From the NCBI GenBank assembly GCA_035310145.1, contig DATGEL010000137.1, positions 1 to 60,311 of the forward strand: a stretch of DNA of 60,311 bases. Reading direction: 5' to 3'. Under the pieces are notes generated by a model that was not told the DNA's origin, did no database searches, and saw only the letters and a program-made list of their open reading frames with translations. Below are positions 47,088 to 56,343 of the stretch, piece by piece; the first letter of the stretch is position 1; each line of letters starts with the position of its first letter. Origin of the DNA: Dehalococcoidia bacterium (GTDB lineage Bacteria; Chloroflexota; Dehalococcoidia; CAUJGQ01). The translations under genes were made by a program, and so were the position numbers.

Positions 47088-49982
47088 TCAGCTCGTGAAG
47101 CCCTCCCAGCGGGCCAGCGGGCCGCAGGCGCTGCCGTTACAGGCCTGCACCGTGTAGTAGTAAAAGTGCCCGGCTTGCAGACCGCCGACCGACGTCACGG
47201 TGTCCTGCAACGCGGTCGTGGTCTGCTGGAACTTCATCACACCGGCCGCCGGATCCCAGACGTAGACCGTGTACTGCGTGGTGCCGGAGAGCGAACCGGC
47301 CGGCGCCGACCAGCGGATGGTCGGCGTCACCCCGTTGCCGGTCGAGCCTTCCAGCGGATTGAGCAGCGTCGGCGTTCCCGGCGCCCCGATCGTGGTGAAG
47401 CCCTCCCAGCGGGCGATCGGACCGCAGAGCGGACCGTTGCAGGCCTGCGCCGTGTAGTAGTAGAAGTGGCCCGGTTGCAGAGCCGAGCCCTGTGGCACCG
47501 CGATCGCCAGCGCCGTGGTTGCGGCCTGGAAGGCCATCACGCCGCCGGACGGATCCCAGATGAACGCCGTGTACTGCGTTGTACCAGCGGCGGAGCCGGC
47601 CGGGGCGTTCCATTGCAGCGTCGGCGTGAGGCTGTTGCCGCTCGATCCTTCGGCAGGGCTGCTCAACCGCGGCGCGCCCGGCGTGCCGATCGTGGTGAAC
47701 CCCTCCCAGCGAGCGGCCGGCCCGCAGGCGCCGCCGTTACAGGCCTGCACCGTGAAGTAGTAAAACGTTCCGTACTGCAGGCCCGCGTTCGGCGCGAGCT
47801 GCTGGCTGAGCGCGTAGGTCGAGAGCTGAAGCGCCATCCTGCCCGCGCCCGGATCCCAGACGGAGAGGGTGTAGAGCGTGGTGCCGTCGAGGCTGTTGGC
47901 GGGCGCCGTCCACTGGAAGGTGGGATTCACGCTGACGCCGCTTGAGCCCTCTACGGGCGCCGTCAAGCCCGGCATGCCCGGCGTGCCGATCGTGGTAAAG
48001 CCTTCCCAGCGCGCCAATGCACCGCAGCTCGAGCCGTTGCAGGCCTGCACCGTGTAGTAGTAGAAGGTGCCGTTGGCAAGCGACGGACTGACCACGACGC
48101 TCGTGCTCGTCGTTGCCTGCTGGAACCGCATGACCCGCGCACCGGGATCCCAGACGTAGGCCGTGTAGATCGTCGTCCCGGGGACGGCGGCCGTCGGCGC
48201 GCTCCACGTGATCTCCGGGTTCAACGTGACGTTGGTGGCGCCCTCGCGGGGGCTCTGCAGCCCGGGCGCGCCGGGGGTGCGGGTGGGCGCCACGGCCTGA
48301 TACACGCCGCCCATGTTGGGCGAGCCCAGGCCGAGGTGGGCAAAATCGCTGCCCATACTGCTGGCGCTGTGGTACGCGGAGCCGCCGGCGTTGTAGAGCA
48401 CCTGCGGCCCGCCGAGGCCGCCGCCCAACTGCTGATTGAGCCGCGCCGCGCCCGCGGCCCAGATCGGCGTCGCGAGGCTCGTTCCCCGCACCTGCCACTG
48501 GCAGCCGGCCTGGCAGACGAGGATGCCAGGGCTGGCGGCGGCCGCCACATCGGGGATCGAGCGCATCGTGGCGGTGGTCAAGCCGCTCTGGAAGCTCGGC
48601 AGCGGGAAGAACTGGCTGACGCCGAAGCCGCTGCCAAGAGGCGGACTCCCACCCGCATTCCAGAACTGTTCGCTGCCGTAGCTGGCTCCCGGTCCCAGGC
48701 TGAAGCTGGTGCCGCCGATCGCGATGCCGTGCGGTATGTCGCTGGGGACGCTGATCGTATTTGGGTAGGCGGTCGTTCCGGTTGAACCGCCGAAGCACGT
48801 GCTCAGATTGTCGGCGCTGGCGGAAAAGATGGCGACGCCGCCGGCCGCTGCCGAGGCGAAGATCGAATCGATCCCCTGGACGTTGGCCAGCGTGTCGTCC
48901 GCCTCGCAGTTCGTCCAACTGTTGCTGATCACCGTGTCGCCGTCGTTGAGCATCGTGTTGAACATTTGTGACCAACTCGTCGCGTTGTTCGGCGCCTGGT
49001 AGTCGATCACCGCGGCGCCCGGCGCCATGCCCAGGATGACATCGATGTCCAGCACGTCCTCGATCTGGCCGGAGGTGTCGCTCGTGCCGCCGTTGACCGT
49101 CTTGTCGCCGACGTTATTGAGCAGTGAGGACGGCAGGCCGACAAGATTCAGCCAGGCGCTCACGTCGCTGCGGTTGTAGGTTGAGAACTCGACCAGGCCG
49201 ACGCGCTGGCCCGCGCCGTTGGCGCTGCCGATGCCCGGGAAGTTGTAGAACTGCGCGATGTCCATCGGCGTCGGCAGCCCGCCGGCCAGGGCCGGTGCGA
49301 GCGCCTGCGCCGGGGCGGCGCGATGCGGCCGCGCCAGGTTGTTGAGGCCGGCTACCGTGCGCACGATCGTCGAGAGGTTGGCGGGTACGGCGGGATCGCT
49401 GGTGTTGGCGAAAAAGCTGCGCGAGCTAAGCTGAAAATCGTTGATCTGCACCGCGAAGGCTTGCTCGGCCTGGGCGCGCGTGCCCTGGAACGTCAACGTC
49501 AGGCGGTTGGCCGAGTCCTGGACAAGCGCGAAGCCCTGCGCCTCCATGTACGACCGCACGGCCGCGGACGCCTGCGCGGTCGGTCCGAAGCGGTCGGCGA
49601 GCTGGCTCTGGCTCAGGAACCGGCGGTAGGACGGCGATCGCGGATCCTGGACGGCCTCAAGGAAGCTCTCGAAGCCCGATTCGTCCGTGCGGTTGAGCAC
49701 GACGGTGACCGTGATCGGCTGATCCGCAACCTGAGGCAGCCGCGCCAGCGCCTGGGCGCGCCCCAGCGCCTGCAACGTGTGTCCCGGCAGCCGCACGAGC
49801 GGGCCGACCTGGGCAGGCCCCGGCGCCGGGGAGGGCGTTGGGGCGGGCGTGGCCGTCGCGCTGGGGCTGGGAGACGGCGTCGCGGCCGTGGCGCTGCCGC
49901 GGCCACCGCCGGCGCCTGCCAGACCGATCACGGTCGCGAGGAGCAGGAAAGCCGCACCGAGGCTGCGCAGGGATCGGAGCAT
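47088..49982 (-). CDS. secreted sedolisin (pro-kumamolisin-type serine-carboxyl protease) with four 100-residue repeats
   Basis: 964 residues. A signal peptide (1-24) is followed by a Thr/Pro/Ala linker and an activation prodomain (about 60-220: RSPSYRRFLSQSQLADRFGP). The catalytic domain has E308 and D312 in IEDVLDID, D391 in SASADN (oxyanion) and S502 in RGTSLATP, the Glu-Asp-Ser triad of sedolisins. Residues 565-964 are four repeats of exactly 100 residues, each beginning near 'P..SP.EGS' and ending CNG..CG..ARWEGFTT. Two Cys per repeat in CNGxxCG may form disulfides. It would digest protein outside the cell at low pH. Confidence 0.94.
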   Translation of the reverse strand: MLRSLRSLGAAFLLLATVIGLAGAGGGRGSATAATPSPSPSATATPAPTPSPAPGPAQVGPLVRLPGHTLQALGRAQALARLPQVADQPITVTVVLNRTDESGFESFLEAVQDPRSPSYRRFLSQSQLADRFGPTAQASAAVRSYMEAQGFALVQDSANRLTLTFQGTRAQAEQAFAVQINDFQLSSRSFFANTSDPAVPANLSTIVRTVAGLNNLARPHRAAPAQALAPALAGGLPTPMDIAQFYNFPGIGSANGAGQRVGLVEFSTYNRSDVSAWLNLVGLPSSLLNNVGDKTVNGGTSDTSGQIEDVLDIDVILGMAPGAAVIDYQAPNNATSWSQMFNTMLNDGDTVISNSWTNCEADDTLANVQGIDSIFASAAAGGVAIFSASADNLSTCFGGSTGTTAYPNTISVPSDIPHGIAIGGTSFSLGPGASYGSEQFWNAGGSPPLGSGFGVSQFFPLPSFQSGLTTATMRSIPDVAAAASPGILVCQAGCQWQVRGTSLATPIWAAGAARLNQQLGGGLGGPQVLYNAGGSAYHSASSMGSDFAHLGLGSPNMGGVYQAVAPTRTPGAPGLQSPREGATNVTLNPEITWSAPTAAVPGTTIYTAYVWDPGARVMRFQQATTSTSVVVSPSLANGTFYYYTVQACNGSSCGALARWEGFTTIGTPGMPGLTAPVEGSSGVSVNPTFQWTAPANSLDGTTLYTLSVWDPGAGRMALQLSTYALSQQLAPNAGLQYGTFYYFTVQACNGGACGPAARWEGFTTIGTPGAPRLSSPAEGSSGNSLTPTLQWNAPAGSAAGTTQYTAFIWDPSGGVMAFQAATTALAIAVPQGSALQPGHFYYYTAQACNGPLCGPIARWEGFTTIGAPGTPTLLNPLEGSTGNGVTPTIRWSAPAGSLSGTTQYTVYVWDPAAGVMKFQQTTTALQDTVTSVGGLQAGHFYYYTVQACNGSACGPLARWEGFTS
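47091..48290 (-). repeat. four 300-base coding repeats in the sedolisin gene
   Basis: CCCTCCCAGC (CCTTCCCAGC in the fourth) recurs at 47101, 47401, 47701 and 48001, exactly 300 bases apart with no indel. The units are diverged at the DNA level but keep length exactly, so unequal exchange is possible but selection on length is indicated. Confidence 0.9.
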
Positions 49983-50331
49983 TGCAGGGGGCGTCCTTCG
50001 GAGCTTGCGGTGGGCCTGAAGGTCGCGTGTGCATCGGCCCGCCGCCGGTCTGAGCCTACGCGGCGCTGCCCGTCGGGGGATTCGGCCCCGACCGCCAGCG
50101 CCCATCCAGTCTACCGTATCGCCATGATTTTGTCAGATCGAGATCGTGAGACACCGTGATGCAGCGAATCAGACGAAGGGGATGTATTGGCCCGTGCTCT
50201 CAGGACGCAGCGGCGCGTTGTTCGGCCGGTGAGCGCACGGCACGGGGCAGCCTCTAGCGCCGCGAGGGAGACCGGCGCCAGGGGACGCGGCGACGCCGCG
50301 GCGCGGACGGGATCGCGGCTGTTCGGAGAGG
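49983..50331. other. 349-base non-coding region upstream of the sedolisin
   Basis: It contains the sedolisin promoter candidate at 50108-50136 and a leader of about 120 bases. I see no gene in it. Confidence 0.6.
50108..50136 (-). promoter_or_regulatory. promoter candidate CTGACA-17-TAGACT for the sedolisin
   Basis: On the minus strand CTGACA and TAGACT are separated by exactly 17 bases. They match the sigma-70 consensus at five of six (-35) and four of six (-10) positions. It is the best complete two-box promoter in the window. Confidence 0.55.
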
Positions 50332-51510
50332 CTACGGCCGCAGTTGGGCTACGCGCTGCTTCAGCACCTCGGGCACCTCTTTGCCGGCGTCGGTGAACGC
50401 CTTCGCCAGCGCCTGCTGGCTTGGGGCGAAGATCGTGCGGCGGTGCGAGGAGACGTACTCGCGCGAGCCGATCGTCGTGCGGACGGAATCCTGGAAGTGC
50501 GGCATCACGTAGCGGGCGAGCAGCTCGAAGCTGCGCATCGTCGCCTCGCGGTTCGCCCATTCCGTGGCGCGAATCAGCAGGCCGCCGAAGCCGCCGCTGT
50601 CGGTTTGCAGCTTCTCCAGCGCCTCGATCGCATCCTCCGGCGTGCCGACGATGTTGACGCCCAGCCGCACCAGCTCTTCCAGGTTGTTCGGACCCTCCGG
50701 CTGTCCCAGAGTTTGCTGGAAGTAGCTGACGGTTTCGCGCCGCTCACCAACTTCGACATCGCGATAGGCCTGTTCGCGCGTTTCCGCCAGGTGCACGCTC
50801 TTCACCAGGCGCCACTCGGCGCGGTCCATCGTCTTACCGTGCTGCGCCGCCGCCTCCTCGGCCAACGACCAGTGCTTGCGGATGCCGTCCACCTCGCCGG
50901 TGACGCTCGCGCCGATCGAAAGCACGCCCAGGCCGTGCTTGCCTGCGGCCAGCATGCCCGCGGGCGAGAGCACGCTGGCGACGGCGATGGGGAAGCAGGG
51001 CCGCGTGTAGGGCAGCAGTTGCAGGCTGGCGTCGCGCAGCTCGAACCAGTCGGTCTTCATGTCCACGGTTTCGCCGTGGAGCAGGGCGACGATCGCGTCG
51101 AGCGACTCTTCCATGCGCGGCCGCTGGGTCGCGGGGTCAATGCCCATCATCCAGGCGTCCGACGTGAGGGCGCCCGGGCCGACGCCGAGCATCGAGCGGC
51201 CGCGCGTCATGTGGTCGAGCTGCACCATGCGGTCGGCCACCATCAGCGGATGGTGGTACGGCAGGCTGGTGACGCCGGTGCCGAGCATAATGTGCTTCGT
51301 GCGCTCGGCCGCGGCGGCGATCATCAGCTCCGGCGAGGCGATGATCTCCCAGCCGGCGCTGTGATGCTCGCCGATCCAGGCCTCATCGAAGTCCAGGTAG
51401 TCGAGCCACTCGATCAGCTCGAGGTCGCGTTGCATCGCCAGTGTCGGATTGTCTCCCACGCGGTGGAACGGGGCCATGAATATGCCGAACTTCATCCGCT
51501 GACCTGCCAT
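50332..51510 (-). CDS. LLM-class (luciferase-like) flavin-dependent oxidoreductase
   Basis: 392 residues. GIFMAPFHRVGDNPTLAMQRDL, FDEAWIGEHHSAGWEIIASP, GTGVTSLPYHHPLMVADRM and RGRSMLGVGPGALTSDAWMMG are typical of LLM flavin monooxygenases that need a separate flavin reductase. The active-site His pair EHH is present. ATG 51510 or ATG 51495 (MKFGIF) may be the start. No reductase adjoins; the substrate is unknown. Confidence 0.92.
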   Translation of the reverse strand: MAGQRMKFGIFMAPFHRVGDNPTLAMQRDLELIEWLDYLDFDEAWIGEHHSAGWEIIASPELMIAAAAERTKHIMLGTGVTSLPYHHPLMVADRMVQLDHMTRGRSMLGVGPGALTSDAWMMGIDPATQRPRMEESLDAIVALLHGETVDMKTDWFELRDASLQLLPYTRPCFPIAVASVLSPAGMLAAGKHGLGVLSIGASVTGEVDGIRKHWSLAEEAAAQHGKTMDRAEWRLVKSVHLAETREQAYRDVEVGERRETVSYFQQTLGQPEGPNNLEELVRLGVNIVGTPEDAIEALEKLQTDSGGFGGLLIRATEWANREATMRSFELLARYVMPHFQDSVRTTIGSREYVSSHRRTIFAPSQQALAKAFTDAGKEVPEVLKQRVAQLRP

Positions 51511-51662
51511 CGTCCCAGCTCTCCCCCATGCGCCGCGCCCGCCCAAGGCTCCGCAGACGCGGCGCGGGCGATCGCTGCTCGCACGATTCGTAGCATGTGC
51601 CGGCGGCCGCGGGCAAGCCGGTACACACCTGCGCCGGCGTTCGCGGCGGAACGGGAGACGGT

Positions 51663-52622
51663 CTAGCCGCGGTAGCCGCGTGCCCTGGCCGGGTCCGCGG
51701 GCGTGGCGAAGAGGTCGCTGAGCCGTTCGAAGAGCAGGCCGAGAAGCACGATCGCCAGCGCCAGCAACACGTAGATGAGATAGCTGAGGAGGAGGAACCA
51801 GCAGACGTCGCGGGCGAGGTCGGAGGTGCCGGCGACCAACGGGTCGAGCGAGGTGCCGTACGCCAGTTGCACGATCAGCCAGGCGATGCCGCTGAGCACG
51901 AGCAGGGGCAGCGCGGCGATCAGCAGGGCTGCCCCATACATCACCAACTGGTTGTAGCCGCGGCTGAGCGGCAGCAGCAGAATGCCGAGCACCGCGACCG
52001 CGATCAGCGCCGCCTTGGCGATGGAGAGCGCGTGCGCGTGAAAGCCGGGATCGAGCACGTTGAGCGCGGTGTTGAAGGCCCAGGGCGCGGAGAGCTGGGA
52101 GAAGCTGCCGAGCTTCACGGGCCGGCCGTTGGCGGTGAAGGCGCCGGTGCCACGCTCGTAGACCGCGTCCGCGGCGCGGGTCAGCAGCGTCTGGCGGACC
52201 TCGCTGGGCGAGCGGTTGAGCACGTCTTTCGGGTAGAGTACGGCCTTGATCGGGAAGCCGGTGAGCGTGAAGCCGTTGGCGCCGGCCGGCGAGGCGGCGG
52301 CGCTCTGCAGCTCGTCATAGTGGGCGCTGAGCGTGCTGTCGAAGTCGGTGATCTCGGGAATGGCGCGCCCCAGGATGCGCCGCGCCGAGTCGCGGGCGGT
52401 GACGCGCGAGAGCGTGTACGCCGCCAGCATCGCGACGAGGGAAAGCACCAGCAGCAGCGCGAACAGGCGCAGCCAGAAGGCGACGTTCGACTCCGCATCT
52501 TCGCGGTAGGCTGCTGCACGCCCGTAGCGACGCGCGATCTCCCGCCGATCGAGGCCGTCGAACTCCGGCTGGTAGACGCGCGGCGAGTCGATCGGTCCGC
52601 TCCTCTGGCTCATGCGACTCAT
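51663..52622 (-). CDS. multi-pass membrane protein of unknown function
   Basis: 319 residues with five likely membrane helices: one near residue 50 (LRLFALLLVLSLVAMLAAYT), then after a roughly 135-residue external loop a cluster near 210-300 (AALIAVAVLGILLLPL, AALLIAALPLLVLSGIAW, FLLLSYLIYVLLALAIVL). The loop includes NGFTLTGFPIKAVLYPKDVL. No family is recognised. ATG 52622 overlaps the RDD stop (ATGA), so the two are coupled. Confidence 0.8.
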   Translation of the reverse strand: MSRMSQRSGPIDSPRVYQPEFDGLDRREIARRYGRAAAYREDAESNVAFWLRLFALLLVLSLVAMLAAYTLSRVTARDSARRILGRAIPEITDFDSTLSAHYDELQSAAASPAGANGFTLTGFPIKAVLYPKDVLNRSPSEVRQTLLTRAADAVYERGTGAFTANGRPVKLGSFSQLSAPWAFNTALNVLDPGFHAHALSIAKAALIAVAVLGILLLPLSRGYNQLVMYGAALLIAALPLLVLSGIAWLIVQLAYGTSLDPLVAGTSDLARDVCWFLLLSYLIYVLLALAIVLLGLLFERLSDLFATPADPARARGYRG

Positions 52623-53233
52623 CGAAGAACGCCGGGAGCGCCGGGGCGCGCGAGATCGCGCGCGGCGCCGGCGGCGCGCACCACGCGCGTGCCAGCAAGC
52701 AGATCGTGCAGCGCTCGCCGTTCCGGCGTCAGGAGCCAGACGAGCGGATCGGCCACGGCGAGCGCCAGCGGCAGCAGCAAGGCAAGGGCGAGCACCGTGG
52801 GCAACGTCTGCTGTGCGGCCGCGGCGAACGCGCCAAGCAGCAGGAGGACGGTGATCAGGCCGATGCCGGTGGCCGCGCCAACGACGATCAGTCGCAGCAG
52901 GGCGCGCAGCGGTGACGGCGGCGTATCGCCCCTGCCGACCAGGCGCAGCGTCATTGCCGCCAGCCCCGGCGACTGGCCGCGCCGGCTCCAGCAGAGCAGC
53001 ATAATGGCGCCCCAGAGGGGCAGCCAGGCGGCGAACAGGGCCAGCGCCACGTAGATCGCGCCGTCGGAAGGCTGCCGCGTGCCGCCGTCGCTCGTCGCCA
53101 GCAGCCACAGCCAGGCGGCCAGCAGGCAGCCCAGCGCCACGCCGGCTGCCATCAGCAGATCGATCAGGTAGGCGGCAAGGCGCGCCGCGGCCGGCGCCGG
53201 CACGCCCGAACCTGCCTCTGCCTGGCGCTGCAC
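52619..53233 (-). CDS. RDD-family membrane protein
   Basis: 204 residues from GTG 53233. AARLAAYLIDLLMAAGVALG fits the RDD domain start (Arg and two Asp in helix 1), GQSPGLAAMTLRLV is the RDD signature middle (often GxSxGKxxxGL), and DPLVWLLTPERRALHDLLAGTRVV is the usual third segment ending HDLLAGTxVV. RDD proteins are membrane proteins of mostly unknown role. It precedes the other membrane gene and shares its operon. Confidence 0.9.
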   Translation of the reverse strand: MQRQAEAGSGVPAPAAARLAAYLIDLLMAAGVALGCLLAAWLWLLATSDGGTRQPSDGAIYVALALFAAWLPLWGAIMLLCWSRRGQSPGLAAMTLRLVGRGDTPPSPLRALLRLIVVGAATGIGLITVLLLLGAFAAAAQQTLPTVLALALLLPLALAVADPLVWLLTPERRALHDLLAGTRVVRAAGAARDLARPGAPGVLR

Positions 53234-53269
53234 CGCTCCTCCATTGCCCGGATCGCCGGGGCCGCGGCA

Positions 53270-53278
53270 AGTATAGCA
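53270..53278 (-). promoter_or_regulatory. extended -10 (TGCTATACT) for the RDD-membrane operon
   Basis: The minus strand reads TGCTATACT, 36 bases before the GTG at 53233. The surrounding 13-mer GATGCTATACTTG is repeated before gatC. Confidence 0.55.
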
Positions 53279-53303
53279 TCCGGCCCGCGCGTGGCCGAGG
53301 CGC

Positions 53304-55067
53304 TCACAGCTCGCTTTCGCGCGCATCCAGTGACGTGACTTCGAAGCGCTCGTCGGTCTGGTGGATGATCTTGATCGTCGGCGTGGCGCGCTCGTGCACG
53401 GCGGCCTCGCCGCTGAGGCCCAGCCGGCTGGTGAGCACCTGCGCCGCGGAGAACGAACGGCGATTCGCCTCCGCCAGGCCAAGCGGCCGCGCGATCCGCT
53501 CTTCCAGCGCCACCTGAGCGATCGCCTTCAGCCCGTAGCGATCGAGCATGTCGATCAGCAGGCCCAACGGCGCGGCGTCGCCGCTGAAGACGGGTAGCTG
53601 CCGGGCGGCGCTGCGGCGCACCGCCTGCTCGACGCCGAGCGGATCGATCACGCCCGAAAGCTCGGCGAAGAACAGGTTCAGCAGCGGCCGCACGGCCAGT
53701 TCGCCGACGAGCGCCTCCAGATCGGTTTCGGCGCCGTCGGCCGGGGTGCCAAAGAAGCCCTTGACGTAATTGAGGCGCTCGTTGGCGAGCAGCGGCCCGG
53801 CCGGCCCGTAGACGAGCTTGGCGTGCGGGTTGCGGATGTCGGCGTCGATCCAGACGATAATGTCCGACTTCATGCATTCGAGGCTGGCGTGGATCAGCCG
53901 GCCGCGCTGTCCGGGCGCGGCGCCACGCACGCCGACAGCCTGCAACCCGGTGGCCTGCGCCGCCTCCAGCAACTCCGGCGACTCGCCCGCAAAGAAGGCG
54001 GCCTCGTCGACGAGCTTCACGGTGGAAAGCTCGTCGTGCAGCACGCGCGCGTGCGCGGGCAGCGTGTCGGAGCTTTCTCCCGCCAGGAGCGCCACGCCGA
54101 GCGTGAGGCCGCGCGCCTGCTTCTGCGCCACCAGCTCGGCCAGGTTGGCGTACTCGCGGCAGTGGCTGGTGTTCTCCACGAACCAGGCGTTGACCACCTC
54201 TTCCACGGGAAAGCGGCGAGGGCGGAACAGCGCCGGATGCACCGGCCGGCGCGACTTCACCACCAGCACCGTGGCGTCGCTGCGGGCCAGGGCGGCCAGC
54301 GGCAGCGCGCCGAGATCGGACTCGCGCCTCGAGCTGCCGACGCGCGCCCCCAGCACCAGCAGATCGTGCCGCGCGGCCTCGGACAGCACCGCCTCCTCGG
54401 CGGAAGCGGCAGCGACGCTGAATGTGCGCAGCCGCGGGGCATCGGCCGAGCGTGCCACGAGCGATTGGAACAGGCGCTGTTCCTGCTGGCGCAGCGCCGG
54501 CTCGCCGCCCGGCACGTCGACGTGCATCACGGTGACGGCAGCGCCATGCGTTCGCGCGACCCGCAGGGCCACGTCGAGCGCCGCCTCGGCATGCGGCCCG
54601 CCACGCGCCGAGACGAGCACGTGGCGAGGCTCGCCGGCAGTGCCAGGCCGCGCAAAGATCGTGTCGCAGAGTGGCGCTGCGACCAGACCGCGATACGGTT
54701 CTTCCGCCAGTACGGCACGGATTTCGTCGGCGTGCGGTGGGAGGGCTATGATCAGCACGTCGTTGTCGCCGCCGGCTGCCTCGTGAATGCCCGCCAGCAA
54801 CGAGTCGGCCGCGCGCACGACGGTTTCATTGGCAACGGCGCCGAGCTGTTCGCGGGCCAGCGCCCGCAGTTGGCGGCGGGCAGAACGTGCCGCGGTGGTG
54901 GGACCCGCCAGGTCGTGGCCGCGCGGCACGGGTACCACCGCCAGCAGCACGACGGAGCCGGCCGTGCCGGCCAGGTCGCACGCCAGCGGCAACACGCCTG
55001 CCGAGTCGGCGTCGGGCAGGACGGGCACCACCACTCGCGGCGCCGAAGGACGTACCAGCGCTGACAT
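53304..55067 (-). CDS. fusion of two UspA-like domains with a glucosyl-3-phosphoglycerate synthase-like GT2
   Basis: 587 residues from ATG 55067. Residues 1-140 and 148-272 are universal-stress-type domains; the second has the ATP-site pattern GARVGSSRRESDLGALPLA. Residues about 288-575 resemble GpgS (GT81/GT2-like): EVVNAWFVENT, DIIVWIDADIRNPHA with the DxD at 408-410, YGPAGPLLANERLNYVKGFF, DMLDRYGLKAIAQVALEER and RSFSAAQVLTSRLG. GpgS makes glucosyl-3-phosphoglycerate, precursor of the compatible solute glucosylglycerate. The N-terminal nucleotide-binding strand of the transferase is degenerate (TLGVALLAGESSDTL). A stress-linked compatible-solute enzyme is inferred. Confidence 0.88.
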   Translation of the reverse strand: MSALVRPSAPRVVVPVLPDADSAGVLPLACDLAGTAGSVVLLAVVPVPRGHDLAGPTTAARSARRQLRALAREQLGAVANETVVRAADSLLAGIHEAAGGDNDVLIIALPPHADEIRAVLAEEPYRGLVAAPLCDTIFARPGTAGEPRHVLVSARGGPHAEAALDVALRVARTHGAAVTVMHVDVPGGEPALRQQEQRLFQSLVARSADAPRLRTFSVAAASAEEAVLSEAARHDLLVLGARVGSSRRESDLGALPLAALARSDATVLVVKSRRPVHPALFRPRRFPVEEVVNAWFVENTSHCREYANLAELVAQKQARGLTLGVALLAGESSDTLPAHARVLHDELSTVKLVDEAAFFAGESPELLEAAQATGLQAVGVRGAAPGQRGRLIHASLECMKSDIIVWIDADIRNPHAKLVYGPAGPLLANERLNYVKGFFGTPADGAETDLEALVGELAVRPLLNLFFAELSGVIDPLGVEQAVRRSAARQLPVFSGDAAPLGLLIDMLDRYGLKAIAQVALEERIARPLGLAEANRRSFSAAQVLTSRLGLSGEAAVHERATPTIKIIHQTDERFEVTSLDARESEL

Positions 55068-55176
55068 GCAGGGCTCCGACCACCGGCGACTTCGGGGATG
55101 GTACCACAGCGGCGCCCACCTGCCCTCGCCCGAAGGGAGCGGGCCGGGCTCGCCCCCTCGATCGCGCCGCCAGACC

Positions 55177-56343
55177 GTGCTGGCGCTGGCGCTGCTGCTG
55201 CTCGCCCTCTGGGTTGCGCCTTTGCTGACGCTGGGCGCCGTGGCCGGACTCGCCGGCGCGGACGACGAGTTCAACCTCGTGCACTGGGAGGTGACGCGGC
55301 TCGCGGGCTTCGCGTTGAACCGGCTCTCGGCGAGCGTGGCAGGACGCTCGGCCACGAATGCCGAGGTGCTGCGCTACTTTGATCTGCTGCGCCAGGCGCG
55401 CCTCGCGCGGCGAGCCGCGCTTGCCGGCGATGCCTCGGCAACGGGCCGAGCCGCCGACAGGCAGGCGCAGGCCGAGCGCCTGCGGCCGCGAGTCGAGACC
55501 CGCTTCGAGGACGCGGTGGCGGGCGCGGCGCGCGACGCCGGCCTGGTGGAGCGCCTGCCGATCTTCGGCGGCATCTCCTTTGTCTGGCCGCCGCCCGCCG
55601 CCGGCCTGACCACGCCGCCGCACATTCTCGTGATCTCACCGCGCGATCACATCGCGCTGGAGAGCACGCAGTTGCTGCGCAGCACCCTGAGCGACGCCCG
55701 GGCCGCGCAGATTGAGCGCATGGCCGAGCAGGACGGCAACGACAGCGCCCTGGTGGACCAGATCGGCGGCCTCAGCGCCTGGCCAAGCATCGTCGATCAG
55801 AACGACTCGCCGCTCGGCGTGCTGCAGACGATGGCGCACGAGTGGATGCACGCCTATCTCGTCTTCCACCCGCTGGGCGCCCGCTACGGACGAAGCGGCG
55901 ACCTGACGCTGATCAACGAGACCGTGGCCAACCTCGTCGGCCGCGAGCTGGGCAGTGCGGCCTACGCCGGCCTTGGTCTGCCGCCGCCGGCGCCGGACGC
56001 CTCGACCACCTCCCCGAAGGCGGTCGATTTCACCCAGACGATGCACGACCTGCGGCTGCAAGTCGATGCTCTGCTGGCGCAGGGGAAGATCGACGAGGCC
56101 GAACAGCGGATGAACGAGACGCAGCAACTGCTCGCCGCGAACGGCTACGCGATTCGCCGCATCAACCAGGCCTACTTCGCCTTCTACGGTTCCTACGGCG
56201 ACAGCCCGCAGGCGTCGAGCCCGCTTGGCGGCGAGATTGAGACCTTGCGCAAGGCGAACCCCAGCCTCGCCGCGTTCGTGCACCGGGTACAAAACGTGGC
56301 CAGCCGCGCCGATCTGGAGCGGCTGCTGCGAGCGGCCCGCTGA
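55177..56343 (+). CDS. membrane-anchored HExxH metallopeptidase
   Basis: 388 residues from GTG 55177; an ATG at 55066 in frame would add 37 residues but would collide with the divergent gene start. One N-terminal membrane helix (ALALLLLALWVAPLLTLGAV) precedes a large extracytoplasmic part. HEWMH (221-225) with E248 in INETVANLVG is a gluzincin-type zinc site. FHPLG and RRINQAYFAFYGSYGD near the C-terminus are conserved-looking. I do not recognise a named family; it could be an aminopeptidase-like or envelope protease. It is divergent from the UspA-GpgS fusion. Confidence 0.82.
   Translation: MLALALLLLALWVAPLLTLGAVAGLAGADDEFNLVHWEVTRLAGFALNRLSASVAGRSATNAEVLRYFDLLRQARLARRAALAGDASATGRAADRQAQAERLRPRVETRFEDAVAGAARDAGLVERLPIFGGISFVWPPPAAGLTTPPHILVISPRDHIALESTQLLRSTLSDARAAQIERMAEQDGNDSALVDQIGGLSAWPSIVDQNDSPLGVLQTMAHEWMHAYLVFHPLGARYGRSGDLTLINETVANLVGRELGSAAYAGLGLPPPAPDASTTSPKAVDFTQTMHDLRLQVDALLAQGKIDEAEQRMNETQQLLAANGYAIRRINQAYFAFYGSYGDSPQASSPLGGEIETLRKANPSLAAFVHRVQNVASRADLERLLRAAR

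Follow-up and report, generated by a model that had tools for sequence, protein, structure and literature searches.

The window analysed here is a stretch of 60,311 nucleotides (positions 1–60,311 of contig DATGEL010000137.1) from the Dehalococcoidia bacterium assembly GCA_035310145.1; below, 'class' refers to Dehalococcoidia and 'phylum' to Chloroflexota. At 53304..55067, on the minus strand, lies a gene for a protein of 587 residues (L001; stop codon included in the coordinates), in which two universal stress protein (Usp) domains in tandem are followed by a GT81 glycosyltransferase domain with the fold of glucosyl-3-phosphoglycerate synthase (GpgS) and MpgS. The frame is open throughout, as an earlier note on this DNA had reported, while the plus-strand reading of the same interval contains stops. 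Directly downstream, on the minus strand, is an open reading frame for an RDD-family membrane protein (52619..53482; domain at approximately 52691–53197, PF06271, E 7e-14). Two further minus-strand genes encode a luciferase-like (flavin-dependent) monooxygenase (50332–51546, PF00296) and a Pro-kumamolisin (S53-type) protease whose C-terminal part is a series of fn3-like repeats (47088–50105). A divergent plus-strand frame without a Pfam match is listed at 54787–56343, so that its start overlaps the fusion gene, although translation probably begins beyond 55067; the frame includes an HExxH-like stretch, HEWMH, and perhaps encodes a metalloprotease.

The protein was searched against profiles. 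The glycosyltransferase domain (residues 291–587; 53307..54197, minus strand) matched the NCBIfam glucosyl-3-phosphoglycerate synthase profile NF010496 across residues 291–576 (E 3.2e-42, 144.7 bits, below the curated cut-off of 262 bits), and matched the sequences of solved GpgS and MpgS structures in the PDB at about 1e-24. The second Usp domain (residues 148–271; 54255..54626, minus strand), which has a family-conserved N-terminal RGGP and a non-canonical ATP motif, matched the Pfam Usp profile PF00582 (E 2.3e-4, 22.2 bits), narrowly missing the 24-bit cut-off. The first (residues ~10–140; 54648..55040, minus strand) is divergent, gave no Pfam profile match, and was recognised from the structure model only.

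An AlphaFold2 model built from 33 full-length sequences was confident (mean pLDDT 86.9, pTM 0.84). Its glycosyltransferase half has the GT81 GT-A fold, with Rubrobacter MpgS as the best structural match (Z 36.0 over 292 residues) and mycobacterial GpgS also superposing well (Z 34; VIA-align). Residues 7–273 superpose on tandem Usp structures, namely 3loq (Z 20.3), Rv2623 (3cis, Z 19.6) and TTHA0350 (3ab7, Z 19.2), consistent with two Usp folds in tandem. The two UspA-type domains and the GpgS-like transferase that the earlier note had proposed are thus both recovered, and, judged by the predicted fold, the fusion is real and each half was correctly named. A chance origin is excluded by full-length fusion homologues of 29–40% identity in many families.

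Within its own genome the fusion is present in one copy. Full-length relatives were found in seven of the 60 relatives searched and in eight of 393 genomes of the class, the window's own genome being counted in both, with each of the eight from a different family; G001, the one other genome of the window's family, does not have it. Some complete genomes of the class, 1.4–1.7 Mb in size, gave 21–28 matches to the reductive dehalogenase family, in keeping with Dehalococcoidia. Across the phylum, the full-length fusion was found in approximately 117 of 400 sampled genomes at E <= 1e-40. A single-sequence scan of genome contigs returned zero matches and an alignment-based scan was needed. The scan of named genomes yielded at least 567 relatives, chiefly from Chloroflexi MAGs; some others carry the labels Myxococcota, Actinomycetota, Acidobacteriota, Armatimonadota and Pseudomonadota (MAG labels as given). 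Since the patterns of the alignment-based scan favour intact active sites, the generality of the intact site can be judged from the unbiased whole-protein searches only. Most relatives share a C-terminal tail, ERPPM-x-x-VPEY, which is absent from the window protein (53304–53340) and from its relative L002. In the open literature we found no description of a Usp–GpgS fusion, nor a paper joining 'glucosyl-3-phosphoglycerate synthase' with 'universal stress protein'; this agrees with the earlier note, which named no described protein of this design, and is weak evidence of novelty, subscription journals being outside the scope of the search.

The Usp half was examined for the ATP-binding Usp motif, G-2X-G-9X-G(S/T/N), of which domain 1 of TTHA0350 carries a 10X variant (PMC5168468). 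The motif is absent from both Usp domains of the window protein, including when the second gap is widened to 7–11 residues. The ATP-site pattern that had been recognised in the second domain therefore does not match the canonical motif, and the idea that ATP sensing governs solute production is unsupported by the sequence of this protein. Across the fusion family, second Usp domains mostly have G-A-x-A or similar at the motif position, while several relatives, L003, L004, L022, L037 and L042 among them, have a near-motif (e.g. GWKGWTDSQHRIFGA) in their first Usp domain; ATP sensing is thus possible for part of the family.

To describe the active site we used the 3ckj sequence as a ruler, which is offset by five from M. 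tuberculosis numbering, and this offset matches the sites named for GpgS, P50, K114, D134/D136, T187, Y229, E232, R256 and H258 (PMC2581804). In GpgS, Asp134, Lys114 and Glu232 form a network, Tyr229 also has a named role, His258 is a metal residue, V186 and T187 have a role at the acceptor, and R192 and P193 are named as dimer-helix residues (PMC2581804). Aligned with intact members of the family, the window protein retains the DxD metal motif as D408-A-D410 (53838..53846; equivalent to Asp134-x-Asp136), the DAD motif of the earlier note. Around it, the site has been replaced. The nucleotide-sugar strand P-x-L-N-E-x (P50–E55 of GpgS) reads LAGESS (54069..54086), and R388 stands in place of Lys114 (53904..53906). 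The acceptor-site residues G184-R185-V186-T187 are replaced by A-L-V-G (53703..53714), changing 184, 185 and 187. Y229-G-V-E232 is replaced by D-A-A-P (53568..53579), so that of the Asp134–Lys114–Glu232 network only the aspartate remains, lysine having become arginine and glutamate proline. Finally, R256-x-H258-R-N260 reads R-I-A-R-P (53484..53498), with loss of the metal histidine and of the asparagine (all on the minus strand). The GpgS-specific C-terminal blocks reported previously are present as scaffold, but their catalytic letters are changed, and the earlier suspicion that the transferase is no longer catalytic is strengthened by replacement of the equivalents of P50/N53/E54, K114, R185, T187, Y229, E232, H258 and N260. 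His258 alone does not decide activity, because Rubrobacter MpgS has no H-x-N pair at 258/260 in the alignment.

The same site is intact outside the class. In all 94 aligned fusions from elsewhere, P50, E54, S81, K114, D134, D136, G184, R185, T187, Y229, E232, R256, H258 and N260 are kept, with rare changes only at 52 (Arg) and 53 (Asp). Among the eight class members, H258 and N260 are lost in 8/8 and R185 in 7/8, while the DxD motif is present in 6/8. Of 16 active-site residues, the window protein retains 3, L002 retains 5, and the other six retain 8–11, making the window copy the most decayed of the eight. Retention in the class is 49% at active-site columns vs 77% at the remaining columns that are conserved in fusions from elsewhere (permutation p 0.0005); with columns taken as exchangeable and the eight sequences sharing ancestry, this value describes a concentration of loss rather than a number of independent events.

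The pattern of loss differs within the class. An alternative is that this branch has remained a working glycosyltransferase, with a nucleotide-sugar donor but another acceptor and another metal geometry (Asp, Glu or Gln at 258). L003–L008 keep 39 of 48 donor letters (P50, L52, N53, E54, K114, D134, D136 and E232) but 13 of 36 in the acceptor site and loop (G184, R185, T187, R256, H258 and N260), and these six pass the curated GpgS cut-off at 273–317 bits; having kept most donor residues, they may transfer sugar to a different acceptor. The donor site is, however, also lost in the window protein (2/8 donor letters; 1/6 acceptor and loop letters) and in L002 (3/8 and 2/6), and the letters at 258 and 260 vary from one class member to another, which speaks against a single new chemistry common to them. 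On this comparison of residues, we consider a change of acceptor across the branch unlikely, at perhaps one chance in several.

We built a family tree from an alignment without the active-site columns. On it, all class members except L007 group in a supported clade of seven (95/98), within which the window protein pairs with L002 (100/99). L007 is placed elsewhere, but the data do not reject a tree that unites the eight (p-AU 0.41), so there was one loss of the loop at minimum, and there may have been two. The branch to the window protein, at 1.64, is the longest among the fusions, and with no close relative on it, late decay of this one copy would look the same as stable functional loss.

This long branch, together with the rarity of the fusion in the class and its absence from G001, would suit a pseudogene of a lost pathway that is decaying with no present function. 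Such a reading has to accommodate an open frame of 587 codons, a confidently predicted fold, constraint on codon positions, and scaffold residues kept in 8/8 class members, and we consider it very unlikely. Between L001 and L002, the glycosyltransferase half differs at 0.43 and 0.41 of first and second codon positions vs random expectations of 0.70 and 0.74, while third positions are near saturation (0.525 vs 0.595 expected); this constraint applies to the pair jointly and not to the window's own branch up to its tip. The dimer-helix residues R192 and P193 are invariant in 8/8 class members, L189 is kept in 7/8, and L266 in only 2/8. The glycosyltransferase fold is still constrained in the class.

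Gene neighbourhoods differ as well. Outside the class, 45 of 79 named outgroup loci have at least one glucosylglycerate-type neighbour. GT4 glycosyltransferases with a weak likeness to mannosylglucosylglycerate synthase occur at 33 of these 79 loci, sucrose-phosphorylase-like GH13 proteins adjoin at 12, and MGH1/GGH-like hydrolases are also among the neighbours. Mycobacterial GpgP is a member of the histidine phosphatase superfamily, and a histidine phosphatase is found at 10 of the loci, mostly directly downstream, where the profile cannot separate a His_Phos-type GpgP from other members of this large superfamily. At three loci, an MPGP-family HAD phosphatase lies directly downstream of the fusion.

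Several of these loci are informative in themselves. At L094, L128 and similar loci, a GH13 (sucrose-phosphorylase-like) protein, an MGH1/GGH-like hydrolase, one or two GT4 proteins, the Usp–Usp–GpgS fusion and a histidine phosphatase lie within ~1–8 kb around the fusion; we found no description of such a glucosylglycerate-type gene cluster in Chloroflexota. At L054, L056 and L114, from MAGs labelled Deltaproteobacteria, an MPGP-family HAD phosphatase directly follows the fusion; the L054 enzyme scores above the MPGP subfamily cut-off, and at L054 and L056 sugar ABC transporter-like genes follow, as judged by eye. At L097, a second GpgS-like glycosyltransferase of 414 residues (1372–2616, NF010496 E 7e-18) shares an operon with the fusion.

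At the class loci, some of them on short contigs, glucosylglycerate-type phosphatases and hydrolases were not found beside the fusion. The sole match to the operon partners is a generic GT4 at L134, which is encoded on the opposite strand ~3 kb downstream. Instead, an RDD or YihY/BrkB membrane protein flanks the fusion in four of eight class loci: the RDD protein lies directly downstream in the window and also at the sister locus L131 (pairwise E 2e-7 between the two RDD proteins), and YihY/BrkB lies directly upstream at L134 and L137. The window protein thus shares the domain order of the intact form, without its full active site or its glucosylglycerate-type neighbours.

The rest of the genome was searched with the same families in mind. 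No MPGP was found over the cut-off, and no other GpgS passes its cut-off; the fusion is the only GpgS-like protein of the genome, other matches being weak, partial and of GT2 type. Two strong MGH1-like hydrolases are encoded elsewhere (G000:C108:22117-23208 and G000:C145:4439-5521). As this one GpgS-like protein looks inactive, the genome's owner may obtain the solute by scavenging instead of synthesis.

These observations bear on the proposal of the earlier note, a stress-gated GpgS, here with divergent but working residues. The intact fold and DAD motif would allow it, and the two hydrolases could act on its product. Against it stand the replacement of K114, E232, Y229, H258, N260, R185, T187 and the P-x-L-N-E strand, the lack of an MPGP over the cut-off in the genome, and the lack of adjoining glucosylglycerate genes. 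We regard an active GpgS at this locus as highly improbable. A Usp-linked GpgS does fit the intact relatives, with their full site and often glucosylglycerate-type neighbours, and in that family both sequence and gene context give good support to the enzymatic part, with regulation by the Usp half a proposal.

We favour, with reasonable but not strong confidence, a window protein that is a catalytically dead GT81 domain (a pseudo-glycosyltransferase) carried on a tandem Usp and kept as a scaffold or ligand-binding part. In the ancestral form, a tandem Usp would have stood ahead of a GT81 GpgS. This C-terminal domain would make glucosyl-3-phosphoglycerate, from which glucosylglycerate-type solutes are formed, and the Usp half, covalently attached to it, would serve in regulation or oligomerisation. 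In the class lineage, the glycosyltransferase domain gave up its metal and acceptor loop, and the window protein and L002 lost most of the donor site as well; the GT81 fold would have been retained within a Usp-based stress protein, either as a scaffold for dimerisation or to bind a ligand. More speculatively, and rather doubtfully, the class as a whole may have Usp-linked pseudo-glycosyltransferases, in which the GT81 pocket now senses a sugar phosphate or nucleotide sugar and the Usp domains provide the output or the means of oligomerisation, perhaps beside RDD or YihY/BrkB membrane proteins.

To our knowledge, the function of Usp proteins is still largely open. If the intact form is as it looks, much of the phylum makes the solute with an enzyme that is covalently joined to a universal stress protein, and Usp domains gain an enzymatic read-out that can be measured directly. 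The window branch provides a natural comparison, having the same fusion with catalytic letters removed and the fold kept, so that experiments can separate the part played by the Usp–glycosyltransferase scaffold from that of catalysis.

Compared with known systems, the glycosyltransferase half (residues ~284–587) shares the GT-A fold, the DxD motif and the dimer-helix residues with GpgS (GT81; M. tuberculosis Rv1208 and M. hassiacum GpgS), and the intact fusion relatives share the entire active site with the mycobacterial enzyme. GpgS has no Usp domains, and the window protein is without Lys114, Glu232, Tyr229, His258, Asn260, Arg185, Thr187 and the nucleotide strand. The closest fold, that of Rubrobacter xylanophilus MpgS (GT81, 3o3p/3f1y), belongs to a stand-alone protein that retains Lys114, DxD, G-R-V-T and Y/E, whereas the window protein has only the DxD of these. 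At the other end, residues ~7–273 resemble the tandem Usp proteins Rv2623, TTHA0350 and A. fulgidus 3loq in having two Usp folds per chain. Rv2623 and TTHA0350 carry G-2X-G-9/10X-GS motifs (PMC5168468) and the window protein none; unlike all three, it bears a glycosyltransferase domain.
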